Assembly: GCA_016937725.1 (NCBI GenBank)
Contig: JAFGVZ010000123.1
Location: 1 to 42,310, forward strand
Direction of reading: 5' to 3'
Origin: Paracoccaceae bacterium
Lineage (GTDB): Bacteria > Pseudomonadota > Alphaproteobacteria > Rhodobacterales > Rhodobacteraceae
DNA length: 42,310 nucleotides
A program made the position numbers and the translations under genes. Shown in pieces: positions 6,111-13,174 of this stretch; position 1 is the first letter of the stretch; every line of letters begins with the position of its first letter. The notes under the pieces were generated by a model. The model ran no database searches, was not told the DNA's origin, and saw only the letters and a program-made list of their open reading frames with translations.

Positions 6111-6806
6111 TCAGATAGAAACTTCCGCCAGCAGCTTTTCGCGCGTGACCTGCGCCGCCGGGGCAGACAGCCGCACCTCGCCCCGGTTGATGGCGACAAA
6201 GTCATCCGCCAGATCATAGGCGAAATCGAAGAATTGCTCGACCAGCACGATGGCAATCTCGCCTTCTGTGCGGAGCAATTTGATGACCTCTCCGATCTGC
6301 TTGATGATGTTGGGCTGAATGCCCTCGGTCGGTTCATCCAGCAGCAGGACGCGGGGTTGCGCGATCAGCGCGCGGGCGATGGCCAATTGCTGTTGCTGCC
6401 CGCCCGACAGATCACCCCCGCGCCGCGCGCTCATCTGTTTCAGCACCGGGAACAACTCGTAGATACGAGGTGGAATATGATGTTGGTCCTTGGGCAGGCA
6501 GGCAAAGCCGGTTTGCAGGTTCTCCGTCACGGTCAATAGTGGGAAAATTTCGCGCCCTTGCGGGACATAGGCGATGCCCGCTTTCGCGGCTTGCGCGGCG
6601 TTCAGATGGCTCAAAGGTGCGCCATCCAGCGTGATCGTGCCGCCCGAATAGGGGTGGCGGCCCGCGATGGCCTTGAGCAGACTGGTCTTGCCCACGCCAT
6701 TCGTGCCCATCACCGCCGTGACCGCCCCCGGCCGCGCCACAAGGTCGATGCCATAGAGGATTTGCGACGCTCCGTAATGCAATGTCAGGTTTTCGACTTT
6801 CAGCAT
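6111..6806 (-). CDS. urtE: Urea ABC transporter ATP-binding subunit UrtE
   Basis: LivF-like ATPase (GTNGVGKTSLLKAI, LSGGQQQQLAIARAL, LLLDEPTEGIQPNI), last gene of urt operon. Confidence 0.93.
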   Translation of the reverse strand: MLKVENLTLHYGASQILYGIDLVARPGAVTAVMGTNGVGKTSLLKAIAGRHPYSGGTITLDGAPLSHLNAAQAAKAGIAYVPQGREIFPLLTVTENLQTGFACLPKDQHHIPPRIYELFPVLKQMSARRGGDLSGGQQQQLAIARALIAQPRVLLLDEPTEGIQPNIIKQIGEVIKLLRTEGEIAIVLVEQFFDFAYDLADDFVAINRGEVRLSAPAAQVTREKLLAEVSI

Positions 6807-6809
6807 CGC

Positions 6810-7550
6810 TCACCGCCCCAGATAGACATCAATCACCTGTTGGTTTTGCGTCACGTGGTCCAAGCTACCCTCGGCCAGAACCGATCCTTCATGCAGCACC
6901 GTGACCTTGCAATTCAGCCGCCGGATGAATTCCATGTCATGTTCGATCACTACAACTGCGCGGGTTTGGGCCGCGCGGGTCAGCAACTCGGTCGTGTGTT
7001 CCCGCTCTGCGGGCGTCATGCCGGCGGCGGGTTCATCGACCAACAGCAGGCGCGGGTCTTGGGCCAGAAGCATCCCGATCTCCAGCCATTGCTTTTGGCC
7101 ATGGCTCAGGTCCCCCGCGCGACGGGGCAGGTGGTCGGAAAGCCCGATTTCCTCGGCAAGTTCCGCAATCCGCGCCCGCGCGTGGCGGTTGGTTTTGTAA
7201 AGCAGCACGTCGAACGGTCCGCGCTTGTTGCGCAAAGCCATGGCAAGGTTTTCGCGCACGGTCTGGTCTTCGAACACCGTCGGTTTCTGGAACTTGCGGC
7301 CAATGCCCGCGCGGGCGATGGCCGATTCAGACATGCCCAGCAGGTTTTGCGATGCCTCACCCCATAGAACGCGCCCTTCGTCCGGCTTGGTCTTGCCGGT
7401 CACGATATCCATGAAGGTGGTTTTGCCCGCGCCATTGGGGCCGATGACCGCGCGCAATTCCGGCTCGCCAATCGAAATGGACAGGTTGTTGATGGCGCGA
7501 AACCCGTCGAATGTCACCGACACGCCAGAGACTTCCAGAAGCGCGCTCAT
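6810..7550 (-). CDS. urtD: Urea ABC transporter ATP-binding protein UrtD
   Basis: LivG-like ATPase (GPNGAGKTTFMDIVTGKTKPDEGRV, LLVDEPAAGMTPAE). Confidence 0.93.
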   Translation of the reverse strand: MSALLEVSGVSVTFDGFRAINNLSISIGEPELRAVIGPNGAGKTTFMDIVTGKTKPDEGRVLWGEASQNLLGMSESAIARAGIGRKFQKPTVFEDQTVRENLAMALRNKRGPFDVLLYKTNRHARARIAELAEEIGLSDHLPRRAGDLSHGQKQWLEIGMLLAQDPRLLLVDEPAAGMTPAEREHTTELLTRAAQTRAVVVIEHDMEFIRRLNCKVTVLHEGSVLAEGSLDHVTQNQQVIDVYLGR

Positions 7551-8731
7551 GGTTTCCTCACCAGATAGTCAAACAACCCGCCAATGCCCTTGGGGAAGAA
7601 CAGCGTGACTGCCACGAACCCAAGGCCCAGCAGCACCAGCCACCAATCGGTCCAGACGATGCGGTAGAAGCCAAGGTCGATATTCGGCGCGCCGCCGCCG
7701 GTGAACCAACTGGACAGCAAGCTGACCGTGGCCGCGCCGATGACCGCGCCATAAAGCCGCCCACGCCCGCCAATGGCGACCCAGACGGCAAGGTAGATGG
7801 AGGTGATCGGCGCGATTTCTGCGGGGTTGATGATGCCTGCTTGCGGATAATAGAGCGCGCCGGCAATGCCCGACACGATGGCGGTCGCGGTGAACACAAC
7901 CAGCTTGTAGCTTTCGACATGGTAGCCCAGAAACCGCACGCGATTTTCATTGTCGCGGATCGCGCGCACGACAGAACCGAACTTGCCCGACACAAGCCAC
8001 GCGAAGAGCAGGTAGCCTAATCCAAGCGCGAGGGCAGAGGCCCAGAAGAACCACAGCGCAATGGTCGATTGCGGCAGATGCAACAGGCCCGGAATGTTCT
8101 GCAAACCCGACAGCCCGTTATTGCCGCGCAGGCCGGTGTCGTTCTGGAACAGATATAGCGACAGCGCTAGCGTCATGGCTTGTGTCAGGATCGAAAGGTA
8201 AACGCCCGTTACGCGGCTGCGGAAAGCGAGCCAGCCGAAAACAAGCGCCAACAGGCCCGGCACCAGCACAATCAGCAATAATTGCAGCGTCAGGCTATGC
8301 GCGAAGCCCCAGATGAAGGGCAGTTCCGTGCTGCCCACCACGCTGAAAATCTGACTGGCGATTGCGTCTCGCACCTCGCCCTCGGTCGCCGGGATCGGGG
8401 CATTGGCCAGCGATGTGCGCACGATCCCTTCGGTCCGGGCATACATCAGCCACATGCCGATACCGTAGCCGCCTAGCCCGAAAAACGCGAAATGCCCAAG
8501 GCTCAGGATCCCGCAATAGCCCCAGACCACGTCCATCGCGACCGCAATCAGGCATAGGCAGAGCGTCATCCCCAACACCTTGAGGAACGAGGTCGAGATG
8601 ACGCCCGCGCCGAAGCCTTCGGCCAGCGCCGTGACGATCAGGGTGAAGACGGTGAGCAAGCCCAGAAAGCGCAAGACGGAGGGGTTTTCGCTGAGAAAGC
8701 CCTTTTTCGGGGCGAGGGTTGTTTTTGCCAT
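7547..8731 (-). CDS. urtC: Urea ABC transporter permease UrtC
   Basis: LivM-like permease; likely start at MAKTTLAPKKGF...; overlaps urtD start by 4 nt. Confidence 0.93.
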   Translation of the reverse strand: MAKTTLAPKKGFLSENPSVLRFLGLLTVFTLIVTALAEGFGAGVISTSFLKVLGMTLCLCLIAVAMDVVWGYCGILSLGHFAFFGLGGYGIGMWLMYARTEGIVRTSLANAPIPATEGEVRDAIASQIFSVVGSTELPFIWGFAHSLTLQLLLIVLVPGLLALVFGWLAFRSRVTGVYLSILTQAMTLALSLYLFQNDTGLRGNNGLSGLQNIPGLLHLPQSTIALWFFWASALALGLGYLLFAWLVSGKFGSVVRAIRDNENRVRFLGYHVESYKLVVFTATAIVSGIAGALYYPQAGIINPAEIAPITSIYLAVWVAIGGRGRLYGAVIGAATVSLLSSWFTGGGAPNIDLGFYRIVWTDWWLVLLGLGFVAVTLFFPKGIGGLFDYLVRKP

Positions 8732-8735
8732 GGCG

Positions 8736-10700
8736 TCAATCCCCCGCCGCGCGGCCCCTGAGGGCGACAATGCCCTTGGGCCGGAACTGGATGAACAGGA
8801 TCACGAACAACACCATGTAGGTTTGCGCGGCGAGCGTGTTCGAGGGGTTGAACCACTCGATCCCCTTTTGCAGGAACCCGATGAGCGATGCGCCCGCAAG
8901 CGTGCCCCAGACATTGCCCACACCGCCCACAACCACGGTCATAAAGCTTTGGACAATGTAGTTCGCGCCCATTTCAGATGTGACCTGCGCGTATAGCCCG
9001 ATCGCCACGCCCGCGATGCCCGCAATCCCCGACCCAAGCCCAAAGGTCAGCATGTTGATCCGGTCGGGGTTGATGCCCATGCTGGCCGCCATGCCGGGGT
9101 TTTGGGTGACCGCGCGCACTTCCAGCCCCAGCCGGGTGCGCTTCAGGATATACAGAAGCAGGGCCAGAAAGATCAGCGCCAGCACGAAGATCGCCACGCG
9201 AATGGTGCTGATGCCCACGATGTCGTTGATCTGCAACGCTCCGCCCAGCCAATCTGGCGCAGTCAGCGGGCGCGCCTGCGTGCCGAAGATGTTCTTGGCA
9301 AGTTGTTGCAGCGCAATGGAAATGCCGAAGGTCGCCAGCAGGGTTTCCAGCGGGCGCTTGTATAAATGCCGGATCACGCTGCGCTCCATCGCCACGCCCG
9401 CGCCGAAGGTGACAAGAAACGCCAAGGGCAAAGCGACCAACAGGCTGATCGTATAATCGGGGATGAACAATTGCACGACATAGCCGGTATAGGCGCCCAT
9501 CATGATGAACTCGCCATGCGCCATGTTGATCACACCCATCACGCCAAAGGTGATGGCTAGGCCAATCGCGGCGAGGAAAAAGATCGATGCCAGCGACAAG
9601 CCGTCCAGCACAAGATCGGCGACCTGATAGGCGGCGATGGCTTGCTGTGTGCTGTCGAGGGCCGCTTGCGCGGCGGCGGTGATTTCTGCGTCGTCAAGCG
9701 TGTAGCGGTCGAAGAACACATGCGCGGCGACGGCTTGCGCCGCCTCATCCGGGGCGGCGCGGGGCGGAACAGTTCCTGCGGCTTCCAGCGCCTCATAGGC
9801 TTCAATGCGGGCGGCGGGGTCACTCAGGCGACCAACGGGCACACCGCCCACGCGCCCATCGACGATATTTTCCGCCAGAACCTCGCGCAGCATGGCGGGG
9901 GTCTGGGCAGGCTCTGCCAGCGCTGCACTGACCAGCAGCTCGTAAGCGGCGGCTTCGGTCAGGTCGGTGCCCACGTTCAGCACCCGCGCAATATTCGCGC
10001 CCTCGGGCAGGGCAAGGGCAACTTCCGTCACCGTGGCGGTCAGCCGGTTCAGCACCCCGCGCGCTTCAATGCTGGTGTCGCCACCAAGCGCCGCGATGGC
10101 GCTCAGTTGCACGGCCCGATCCTGTGCGAATTGGGCTTGAAGCAACAACAGAAGGCGCTCTTTGCGGGTTTTCAAACTGGCATCGGTTTCACGCTCGACA
10201 CTCTCGGCCAAAGGCGCGATCTGGCTGGCATCTGGGCTGCGGCTGATCGCATCTAGCGCGGCCATGCGGCGTTCGCGTTCGGGCGCGTTCAATTCCAGCG
10301 GCACAAGGGCTGCTGCAATCACGCGCTGCACGCCTGAATTGGTGCGGATTTGCGTCACGTCGCGGCTGGAGACTTCGGCCACGGCCTCTCCGCTATCGAT
10401 ATCGACAAGCCGGACAAGCGCACCTGCATCCTCGGCGTAGAAAAACAGTCCATCTTCGGGGCGCTGCACGACCTCGCGGGCGCTGTAGCGGCGCAGGAAT
10501 TCACCGATATTCGGATGGTCCTGTTCGATCAGCGTAATGACAACGCTTTCGATGGTCCGGCGCGACGGGCTGGCAAGGTCATCGGCAAAAGCCTGCAACG
10601 CGGGTTGCAGCGCGTCTTGTGCACGGGCGGGGCCGGGCAGGGCGACAATCGCCAGCGCCACGAGCGCCAACGCGCGGAACATCAGGGTGCGAAACGGCAT
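8736..10700 (-). CDS. urtB: Urea ABC transporter permease UrtB with long N-terminal periplasmic extension
   Basis: C-terminal LivH-like permease (LASIFFLAAIGLAITFGVMGVINMAHGEFIMMGAYTGYVVQ) preceded by a signal peptide and about 360 aa of soluble sequence. Confidence 0.93.
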   Translation of the reverse strand: MPFRTLMFRALALVALAIVALPGPARAQDALQPALQAFADDLASPSRRTIESVVITLIEQDHPNIGEFLRRYSAREVVQRPEDGLFFYAEDAGALVRLVDIDSGEAVAEVSSRDVTQIRTNSGVQRVIAAALVPLELNAPERERRMAALDAISRSPDASQIAPLAESVERETDASLKTRKERLLLLLQAQFAQDRAVQLSAIAALGGDTSIEARGVLNRLTATVTEVALALPEGANIARVLNVGTDLTEAAAYELLVSAALAEPAQTPAMLREVLAENIVDGRVGGVPVGRLSDPAARIEAYEALEAAGTVPPRAAPDEAAQAVAAHVFFDRYTLDDAEITAAAQAALDSTQQAIAAYQVADLVLDGLSLASIFFLAAIGLAITFGVMGVINMAHGEFIMMGAYTGYVVQLFIPDYTISLLVALPLAFLVTFGAGVAMERSVIRHLYKRPLETLLATFGISIALQQLAKNIFGTQARPLTAPDWLGGALQINDIVGISTIRVAIFVLALIFLALLLYILKRTRLGLEVRAVTQNPGMAASMGINPDRINMLTFGLGSGIAGIAGVAIGLYAQVTSEMGANYIVQSFMTVVVGGVGNVWGTLAGASLIGFLQKGIEWFNPSNTLAAQTYMVLFVILFIQFRPKGIVALRGRAAGD

Positions 10701-10763: not shown

Positions 10764-12050
10764 TTAGTAGTTCGAAGTCAACTGCACGCAGGTCGAGGTT
10801 GCGGTGTTATACATCCCGCAGCCCAGTTCCTGCCAATCGCTCGTCAGCACAGAGCTTTCCGGCAAGAAATCGGTCCATGCATCGCCCGGCACTTCCTCGG
10901 TCTGGCTGATGATGTCGAATTGACCATCAGCACGGATTTCGCCGATCAGGACAGGCTTCGACAGGTGATGGTTGGTGCCCATGACGGCGGTGCCGCCGGT
11001 CAGGTTCGGGAATTCCTGGCCCCACATGGCTTCGCGCACAGCGTCGACATCGGTGGTGCCTGCCGCGGTCACCGCGTTCACCCACATGTTGAAGCCAATG
11101 TAATGTGCCTCCATCGGGTCGTTCGTCACGCGGTTTTCACCTGCAAAGGCTTTCCATGCGGCGACGAATTCGGCGTTGATCTCTGTATCCGCGGACATGA
11201 AGTAGTTCCATGCGGCCAGGTGGCCTGCCAATGGGCCGGTATCCAGACCCGACAATTCCTCTTCACCAACCGAGAAAGCCACCACCGGGATGTCATCCGC
11301 GCTGACGCCCTGTGCGCCCAGTTCGGTGTAAAAGCCGACATTTGCGTCGCCGTTGATGGTCGAGATCACGCCAACCTGCTTGCCGCCTGCGCCAAGCGCG
11401 ACCACGTCGGACACGATGGTCGACCAGTCGGAATGGCCAAAGGGTGTGTAATTCACGAAAATATCTTCAGCAGCGATCCCCTTGGACAGCAAGTAGGCTT
11501 CCAGAATGGCATTCGTCGTGCGCGGATACACATAGTCGGTGCCCAGAAGCGCGAAGCTTTCGACGCCCAGTTCCTCAAGGAAGTAATCCACAGCCGGAAT
11601 CGCCTGCTGGTTCGGCGCGGCGCCAGTGTAGAACACGTTGCGCGAGGATTCCTCGCCTTCATATTGCACCGGGTAGAACATAAGACCGTTCAGCTCTTCC
11701 AGCACCGGCAGGGCGGATTTGCGGCTGACAGAGGTCCATGCGCCAAAGATCACGTCTACCTCGTCGACCGTCAGAAGCTGGCGGGTCAGTTCGGCAAAAA
11801 GCGGCCAGTCAGAAGCAGGGTCGACCACGACAGCCTCGATCTGGCAGCCCAGCAGGCCGCCGGCGGCGTTTTGCTGCTCGATCAGCATCAGCATCACGTC
11901 GCGCAGGGTGGTCTCGGAAATGGCCATGCTGCCCGACAACGAGTGCAGAACGCCAACCTTGATCGGCTCTGCGCAATCCTGTGCCAGAAGTGGTGTCGCA
12001 ACCAAAGCGGTGCTGGCAGCAAGGGCGGAAAGAAGTGTTTTGGGTGTCAT
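10764..12050 (-). CDS. urtA: Urea ABC transporter substrate-binding protein UrtA
   Basis: CAEPIKVGVLHSLSGSMAISETTLRDVMLMLIEQQNAAGGLLG..., AWTSVSRKSALPVLEELNGLMFYPVQYEGEESSRNVFYTGAAPNQQ, the UrtA/AmiC-type urea/amide-binding family. Confidence 0.95.
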   Translation of the reverse strand: MTPKTLLSALAASTALVATPLLAQDCAEPIKVGVLHSLSGSMAISETTLRDVMLMLIEQQNAAGGLLGCQIEAVVVDPASDWPLFAELTRQLLTVDEVDVIFGAWTSVSRKSALPVLEELNGLMFYPVQYEGEESSRNVFYTGAAPNQQAIPAVDYFLEELGVESFALLGTDYVYPRTTNAILEAYLLSKGIAAEDIFVNYTPFGHSDWSTIVSDVVALGAGGKQVGVISTINGDANVGFYTELGAQGVSADDIPVVAFSVGEEELSGLDTGPLAGHLAAWNYFMSADTEINAEFVAAWKAFAGENRVTNDPMEAHYIGFNMWVNAVTAAGTTDVDAVREAMWGQEFPNLTGGTAVMGTNHHLSKPVLIGEIRADGQFDIISQTEEVPGDAWTDFLPESSVLTSDWQELGCGMYNTATSTCVQLTSNY

Positions 12051-12061
12051 AGTGTTACGGC

Positions 12062-12175
12062 GCTCCTAATGTCTGAGCTGCGCAGCGATTGCCGTTCCGG
12101 GTCGCACCGGACACTTCATGCTGGGCCACAGCTTTGTGGTTTCTCCGCCCTGCGCGACCCCGGCACGCCGGAATC
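12062..12175 (-). ncRNA. Candidate structured 5' leader (cis-regulatory RNA) of the urt operon
   Basis: Nested complementarity: 12091-12094/12161-12164 (GCCG/CGGC), 12099-12105/12154-12160 (GGGTCGC/GCGACCC), inner hairpin 12126-12130/12135-12139 (CCACA/TGTGG); second hairpin 12062-12065/12075-12078 (GCTC/GAGC) overlaps the urtA SD AGGAG (minus strand, 12063-12067). Confidence 0.5.
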
Positions 12176-12487
12176 TGGTTCGCAAAGCGGTGTTTTTTGC
12201 CCCAAGTGAGCGTTTTGAACAGAGACCACGCTTGCCCCATCTGCCAATGGCGCACCGAAGACGGTTAACGTGTTGGGGTGCGGATTGAGCGATCCTGCGG
12301 AAAAAATAGCGCTTCGAGTCTATTTATTTTGCACTTGCAGAAAAACGGCGGTGGCGCCGCGGGGATTGTTTCGGCCAGAGCAACGCGCGCACGACGTTTA
12401 CCGCCTTAGGAGGCGATTGGGGTAACGTGGTGCACGTCAGTTGGGCAATTATGAGATTGAGCGTGTCAGCCGCGCCGAAACACGGCC

Positions 12488-13174
12488 CTAGCCAAACCAG
12501 CCGCGATAGTCGCTGACCAGCAGATGCGTAGGCGCGGTATCTTCCTCGATACGCGCAAAACGGCCAATCGGGTCGCGGAAGATATTGTCAGTTTCATCGT
12601 CATTCACGGTAGAAACTTCGCCGATCAGCACATCCCCACCTTCGCCCCAGAAGGCGTGCCAATCGCCCGGACGCAAGGTGACGCTGTCGCCCGGGTCCAG
12701 CCGCAGTTTCTCTCCCGGAATATAATCGTGGCGAATGCCGTCCAGCCAGACCGTGCCGCCCCGGTCTTCGGCAAAGGCTCCGTTATCGTCAGAGCCGTAA
12801 AGCTCGACCACCAGCGTTGCGCCGCCGCGATTGATGATGTCTTCGGCCTTCAGCACATGGGTGTGCATGGGCGAAAGCTGATCCTGCCGCGAGATCAGCA
12901 GTTTCTCGGCATAGCACATGCCGCCACCCTTTTGCAGGTCGGACAAAAGCCCGTTGCGCAGCGTGAACAGGAACAGGCCCATCCGGTCGAAATCGCCAGC
13001 CCCATAGTCGGTAATGTCCCAACCACAGCGCGCGTCGATCAGGTGGCGCGCGTCATCCACGCGGGCTTTGAATTCATCCGGGCTCCAGTAAGCGAAGGCG
13101 GGAAGCGCAAATCCATGGCGGCGGATCATGTCATCTGCCGCGGCCATGATGTCATTGATGCGGGAGCGTTTCAT
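12488..13174 (-). CDS. D-lyxose ketol-isomerase family protein (cupin)
   Basis: MKRSRINDIMAAADDMIRRHGFALPAFAYWSPDEFKA...CYAEKLLISRQDQLSPMHTHVLKAEDIINRGGATLVVEL...GDSVTLRPGDWHAFWGEGGDVLIGEVSTVNDDETDN. Confidence 0.85.
   Translation of the reverse strand: MKRSRINDIMAAADDMIRRHGFALPAFAYWSPDEFKARVDDARHLIDARCGWDITDYGAGDFDRMGLFLFTLRNGLLSDLQKGGGMCYAEKLLISRQDQLSPMHTHVLKAEDIINRGGATLVVELYGSDDNGAFAEDRGGTVWLDGIRHDYIPGEKLRLDPGDSVTLRPGDWHAFWGEGGDVLIGEVSTVNDDETDNIFRDPIGRFARIEEDTAPTHLLVSDYRGWFG

Follow-up and report, generated by a model that had tools for sequence, protein, structure and literature searches.

We identified a structured leader RNA element that is found almost exclusively upstream of urtA, in about a hundred Rhodobacteraceae genera, and we regard it as virtually certain that these elements constitute a genuine RNA family. 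The urtA leader in the window, i.e., the whole stretch of 42,310 nucleotides that was analyzed, is, judged by its sequence, a diverged and possibly decayed ortholog of this element. Our overall best explanation, in which we have moderate confidence, is that this leader is a diverged ortholog of an urtA-specific leader RNA family of the Rhodobacteraceae that tunes urtA translation through two of its helices, P2 and P4. An earlier note had proposed a structured, cis-acting leader RNA upstream of urtA, and the conserved, covarying element that we observe in relatives bears this proposal out.

Genomic setting

The window is contig C230 of an assembly of 247 contigs, with the genome 85% complete. 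It carries urtABCDE on the minus strand (12050 to 6111), with each of the five products scoring above its NCBIfam cut-off (Table 1). The gene upstream of urtA (12488-13174) is D-lyxose isomerase-like, with a profile score below the family cut-off, and is separated from urtA by an intergenic gap of 437 bp; a match to the urease alpha subunit is located on another contig of the genome (C32). Two further features of the window were observed. UrtB (8736-10700, minus strand) has an N-terminal extension of approximately 360 residues ahead of the permease domain, with the profile matching only at 363-650, and positions 173-300 of the plus strand match Rfam RF02646 (Cis8_sRNA of Ruegeria) well above the gathering score.

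Table 1. Positions, in the window, of the urt genes and of the parts of the urtA leader
Feature	Position	Strand	Basis
TTGGCA, promoter-like -35 element	12242-12247	-	shared, at equal distance from P0, by the window and the four relatives nearest to it
P0 hairpin GCUC-ACUUG-GGGC	12199-12211	-	100% of cells paired in five relatives
P1 5' strand CCGCUUUGCG	12181-12190	-	pairs with 12145-12154; double-sided changes in relatives; probability 0.99 in the longer leader
Apical hairpin GAUUCCGG-CGUG-CCGGGGUC	12156-12175	-	minimum-energy fold; stands where the family has the core AUCCUGGCAGAU
P1 3' strand CGCAGGGCGG	12145-12154	-	as for the P1 5' strand; part of this strand is reused by the alternative fold of the earlier note
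Outer helix of the earlier note, GCCG/CGGC plus GGGUCGC/GCGACCC	12091-12164	-	possible alternative fold; not conserved
P2 hairpin CCACA-AAGC-UGUGG	12126-12139	-	pairing and position conserved; inner hairpin of the earlier note
P4 5' strand candidate GCUGUG	12127-12132	-	P4 supported family-wide; own P4 of the window unremarkable, rank 0.45
P4 3' strand candidate CGCAGC	12077-12082	-	inside the palindrome of the earlier note
Weak SD hairpin GCUC...GGAGC	12062-12078	-	probability 0.51; weak family support for SD pairing
urtA Shine-Dalgarno (SD) AGGAG	12063-12067	-	sequence; conserved in relatives
urtA, urea ABC transporter substrate-binding protein	10764-12050	-	TIGR03407 above curated cut-off
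urtB, urtC, urtD, urtE	6111-10700	-	TIGR03409, TIGR03408, TIGR03411, TIGR03410 above cut-offs

Distribution of the element upstream of urtA

Aligning the regions upstream of urtA in the genus of the window, we observe a strongly conserved element in 23 of 29 leaders, in which GCUGA..UCAG is followed by AUGCAUGUCCGACGG[..GAUCCUGGCAGAUGCUG..]CYGCCGGACAUGC, by GCAACA, and then by CUGCUGC. Applied to 397 genera of the family, a covariance model built from these 23 leaders, with the window excluded (R1), gave 16 clear matches, of which 15 are located directly upstream of urtA and the 16th upstream of an apparent urtA remnant. When 84,980 species genomes were scanned blind with a sequence pattern, 49 matches were returned, with 44 of these in the Rhodobacteraceae or in records named only Rhodobacterales or Alphaproteobacteria; urtA lies directly downstream in 43 of the 44, and the one other locus ends before the gene. 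The remaining five matches, which have no urtA nearby (two in Massilia and one each in a member of the Planctomycetota, Akkermansia, and a member of the Opitutaceae), are by our estimate about the number expected by chance for such a pattern. A class-wide scan of 385 genomes gave a single match, in a member of the same family.

Wider models extended this distribution. A second covariance model (R2), run on the 397 genera at E values up to 0.01, gave 54 matches in 52 genera; the strongest were loci already checked, and the next two sets were located upstream of urtA in 12 of 12 and 17 of 24 cases. A third model (R3), built from 71 members, gave matches in 109 genera, and 40 further matches of this model, with E values from 6e-7 to 3e-3, are directly upstream of urtA in 32 cases. 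When 116 urtA loci from 180 genera were surveyed, 40 had an adjacent R3 match. Among 60 remaining leaders, about 30 contain a divergent element, this being a judgement by eye and not a computed number; examples are GGUGUGNGACGACC..AAUUGGACCUC..GGCCGCCACACGNNUGCAAC..GUUGC and CGUGCGAUGG..CCACCGCACNCCGCAA..UUGCG, and many of these leaders do score with R3 when searched singly. Some Rhodobacteraceae urtA leaders show no element. The presence of the element upstream of urtA in this family is therefore common, not exceptional.

Several individual loci were recorded in the course of these surveys. Within the genus of the window, the urtA leaders L035, L044, L045, L057, and L059 contain no recognizable element, i.e., there have been several losses within this genus. 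Locus L073 (G124:C1:97905-97987) has kept the element upstream of a seemingly broken urtA start, which is followed by a gene encoding a GntR-type regulator. Locus L189 (G102:C1:3121942-3122011) contains an element-like sequence with GGGUGCAACACGAAGCUGC and has no urtA downstream, a gene encoding a TetR-type regulator being located approximately 400 bp further on.

Structure and covariation of the family

Read 5' to 3', members of the family carry a hairpin (P0), then a long stem (P1) whose apical core is conserved (canonically AUCCUGGCAGAU), and then a second hairpin, P2 (GCAAC/GYUGC); a long-range helix, P4, reuses the 3' strand of P2 and stops immediately 5' of the SD. The P0 hairpin, which directly precedes P1, is free in sequence and is present family-wide, with a mean folding z of -1.16, compared to -0.32 for control stretches. 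Double-sided changes occur at all 12 pairs of P1 among 65 distinct sequences, and in alignments that were fitted to a model, and that are thus biased towards its structure, P1 scores 0.380 for covariation with 65 sequences, compared to 0.152 (sd 0.008) for shuffles and no more than 0.086 with the helix slid, and 0.316 compared to 0.159 with 93 sequences. Since such alignments lean to their own structure, we added an alignment-free arm-swap test, in which the duplex energy of the two arms of a leader is compared to that of arms swapped between leaders; for P1, this gave a z of -1.71 (se 0.14) in 37 divergent leaders. P2 likewise varies in a paired manner, with the arm types GCAAC/GCUGC (50), GCAAC/GUUGC (23), ACAAC/GCUGU (5), and ACAGC/GCUGU (3), and its middle A.C pair turns to A-U or G-C in other lineages. 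The loop of P2 has a variable length of about 3 to 9 nt, and that of P1 is longer. The structure of the element is under strong selection.

The arm-swap test also covered pairing closer to urtA. For P4, own arms compared to swapped arms gave a z of -1.09 (se 0.08) across 117 leaders, versus +0.19 (se 0.07) for a control stretch; examples of P4 are UUGCAGGGA/UCCCUGCAA-GGAG in L278, GCGGGCGC/GCGCCCGC in L265, GCAGAGAA/UUCUCUGC in L266, and GCCGCCC/GGGCGGC in L291. The excess of P4 pairing starts at the GC that also closes P2, so that the two helices compete for no fewer than two nucleotides, the competition resting on two to four shared nucleotides. Such sharing fits what the two states of a switch would show; a shortened P2 could coexist with P4. 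P4 itself leaves the SD uncovered. The earlier note had described a closed domain followed by a hairpin (GCUC/GAGC) that sequesters the SD, and of this description the order of a closed domain and then pairing near the SD holds. The SD-masking hairpin does not hold as a family feature and was rejected: it is an even matter in the window (Table 1), the family gives weak support to pairing between the SD and the 30 nt ahead of it (z -0.15, se 0.07), and the helix near the SD that does covary is P4, located just 5' of the SD.

Two other pairings gave little. Pairing of the P1 5' strand with downstream sequence (an anti-P1 helix) was weak (z -0.29, se 0.13), and the test of a pseudoknot between the loop GGCA and the P2 3' strand was uninformative because both strands are nearly invariant. 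In addition, A.C mismatches recur at fixed places in P1 and P2 (alignments A4 and A7) and become A-U, G-C, or C-G in other lineages, a pattern that would fit an A.C wobble being tolerated or even exploited. Upstream of P0, leaders L046 and L139, with others of the genus, contain palindromes of the NtrC-site type such as TGCCCAATAATTGGGCA, and just upstream of P0 the same leaders have a promoter-like TTG-N17-CAATAA; these two features suggest that the same promoter may be under nitrogen control.

The leader in the window

The sequence elements listed in the earlier note are all present on the minus strand, i.e., GCCGGGGTCGC at 12164-12154 and GCGACCCGGAACGGC at 12105-12091, CCACA-AAGC-TGTGG at 12139-12126, the palindrome GCTGCGCAGC at 12086-12077, and GCTC...GAGC at 12078-12062 with AGGAG at 12067-12063. 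The inner hairpin of that note, CCACA-AAGC-UGUGG, is real and is confirmed by its conservation as P2. The boundaries were placed differently: the conserved element begins near 12211, approximately 35 nt upstream of the earlier 5' limit. We chose a start approximately 35 nt further 5' because of this conservation and of the promoter-like TTGGCA, which would place the transcript start of urtA in the window near 12213, i.e., near P0.

The choice of start determines the fold. When 12062-12175 is folded alone, the fold described in the earlier note is the minimum-energy structure, with an energy within chance (z -1.21), and the folding energy of 12047-12180 compared to shuffles is also within chance (z -0.45). 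Folded from about 12216, the best structure consists of P1 (12190-12181 with 12154-12145), an extended apical hairpin, and the CCACA/UGUGG hairpin, with P1 at a probability of 0.99 and the GGGUCGC/GCGACCC helix at 0.004; the longer leader is only 2.8 kcal/mol worse when forced to hold the latter. This longer fold is no more stable than shuffles (z -0.19), with the element alone (12120-12214) at z -1.57. Folding energy alone thus decides nothing for the window leader, and support comes from relatives.

The window leader aligns with those of the relatives L033 (z 4.3) and L036 (z 3.5), and contains P0, P1, and P2 in the order that defines the family upstream of urtA. For P0, P1, and P2 together, 84% of cells are paired across the window and the four relatives nearest to it, with eight double-sided changes. 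A DNA similarity search of the window leader against 199 genomes of the family gave only short GC-rich matches, and the copy is scored by none of the three covariance models. The conserved apical core and the GCAAC of P2 are absent from the window, which has AUUCCGGCGUGCC and CCACA instead, AUUCCGGCGUGCCGGGGUC standing in place of the family core. A window P4 is possible (GCUGUG/CGCAGC, rank 0.45). Since the core is lost, sensing may be altered or lost in the window copy and is doubtful in the source organism, and we put the chance that this copy still works at about even.

Alternative explanations

That the window leader is a decaying relic without sensing function, with urtA controlled at the promoter only, we consider close to an even prospect. 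The loss of the conserved core, the lack of any model score, and the unremarkable P4 would all be expected of a relic, and the losses in the five leaders of the genus named above look independent; against this, P0, P1, and P2 are kept with compensatory changes and P1 has a near-certain pairing probability, neither of which decay would favor. A protein-binding leader, in which an RNA-binding protein that recognizes P2 and the loop of P1 would act on urtA translation or on mRNA stability with no metabolite bound to the RNA, is in our estimate rather unlikely: the single target operon, the compact pair of hairpins, and the conserved loop suit a protein site equally with an aptamer, but no dedicated regulator gene was recognized beside the operon in the window and the sharing between P2 and P4 fits a switch, although neither is a strong point.

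The fold of the earlier note, an outer helix around a hairpin followed by an SD hairpin, is the minimum-energy structure of the isolated stretch, and its small energy cost in the longer leader means that it could be an alternative state. Its outer helix is, however, unconserved even in the nearest relatives (across the window and these four relatives, 46% of its cells are paired, and 38.7% of those in the 7-bp part), and GGGUCGC/GCGACCC reuses the P1 3' strand and is excluded by the conserved P1; we therefore regard this fold as very improbable as the functional structure of the window leader. The covariation check on homologous urtA leaders, in short, fails the outer helix and upholds the leader as a whole. 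It is still less probable that the conserved stretch is a short upstream open reading frame, i.e., a leader peptide with ILAD in the middle acting as a translation attenuator. Of 63 elements, 51 do have an in-frame start of some kind and a frame that stays open across the core, but the distance from P1 to P2 is spread evenly over the three frames (34, 29, and 30 of 93), start codons are not conserved, and conservation spans all codon positions and follows pairing; the frame spread and the unconserved start codon rule this explanation out. Least probable of all is that the P1 inverted repeat acts as DNA, as an operator for a transcription factor with no RNA structure. Upstream of nitrogen operons, inverted repeats frequently serve as operators, but here the arm sequences vary freely with pairing kept, the A.C mismatches recur, the loop motif occurs on the sense strand in every case, and P4 ties the element to the SD. 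We rejected this explanation, which leaves the sense-strand-only loop, the recurring mismatches, and P4 unexplained.

Proposed function and significance

The family has one of the features generally expected of a riboswitch, a conserved, aptamer-like domain with covarying helices upstream of a metabolism gene. We class it as a putative cis-regulatory leader RNA and an orphan riboswitch candidate, which may be a new kind of RNA sensor. In the function that we propose, the transcript would begin with P0, followed by an aptamer-like domain consisting of P1, the conserved apical core, and P2. This domain would sense a signal of urea or nitrogen supply, with a small molecule somewhat likelier than a protein. 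The 3' strand of P2 would then re-pair, as P4, with the segment ending just 5' of the urtA SD, and the exchange between P2 and P4 would tune the initiation of urtA translation. The transcript start, the switching, and the ligand are predicted parts of this model, in which the P2 state could turn translation either up or down. We judge control of urtA translation through the P2/P4 exchange to be slightly favored, that the ligand is a small molecule to fall a little short of an even chance, and that the family is a new riboswitch class with urea or a compound of the urea pathway as its ligand to be decidedly unlikely.

Urea is a nitrogen source that is widely used in the sea. If the last of these proposals were true, the element would be the first natural RNA to sense urea, and in Rhodobacteraceae of the sea and of soda lakes it would tune the high-affinity urea transporter. 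As a strong orphan riboswitch candidate, it comes with a short list of candidate ligands, namely urea, ammonium, glutamine, guanidine, allophanate, and nickel. If bound by a protein instead, it would still be a post-transcriptional layer of nitrogen control in the Rhodobacteraceae. In either case, this is a covarying leader RNA tied to one operon in an ecologically important marine family, and it is absent from Rfam 15.

Comparison with known regulatory RNAs

The earlier note had assigned the leader to no known class, and Rfam 15 indeed has no matching family: no match at gathering level was found over the leader in the window, and the element in 27 relatives gave no match at E values up to 1 to guanidine, glutamine, cobalamin, SAM/SAH, or any other family. 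A urea riboswitch is mentioned nowhere in the full text of the 5.39 million open-access papers searched, and the literature searched contains no urtA leader RNA, an earlier listing under another name being possible. The best reading is that the urtA leader RNA is a new, apparently undescribed family of cis-regulatory leader RNA.

Several known systems invite comparison. RNA control by nitrogen status is exerted by the glutamine riboswitches (glnA and downstream-peptide), which precede several nitrogen genes, whereas the urtA element precedes urtA only and has no Rfam match. The target RNAs of ANTAR proteins consist of two adjacent hairpins with six-base loops of a fixed pattern; we rejected this class for the urtA element, whose P2 loop is of variable length (about 3 to 9 nt) and whose P1 loop is both longer and different. 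Guanidine riboswitches (guanidine-I to -IV) are leader RNAs near genes for urea carboxylase and nitrogen-metabolism transporters (PMC7266159); they precede many kinds of genes, unlike the urtA element, which is found upstream of urtA only, and none scores in our Rfam scans. The HRC-8-4 and uORFC-8-2 motifs are restricted to the Rhodobacterales and were likewise found by comparative genomics, located at cco operons and cysS (PMC8632094) and not, as the urtA element is, at urtA. The SAM/SAH riboswitch of the Rhodobacterales (RF01727) is a small, order-restricted leader RNA tied to metK (PMC2864571). The urtA element differs from it in having no sequence match, another gene, and another structure, and resembles it in being a small leader RNA that is associated with one gene and has a restricted range.
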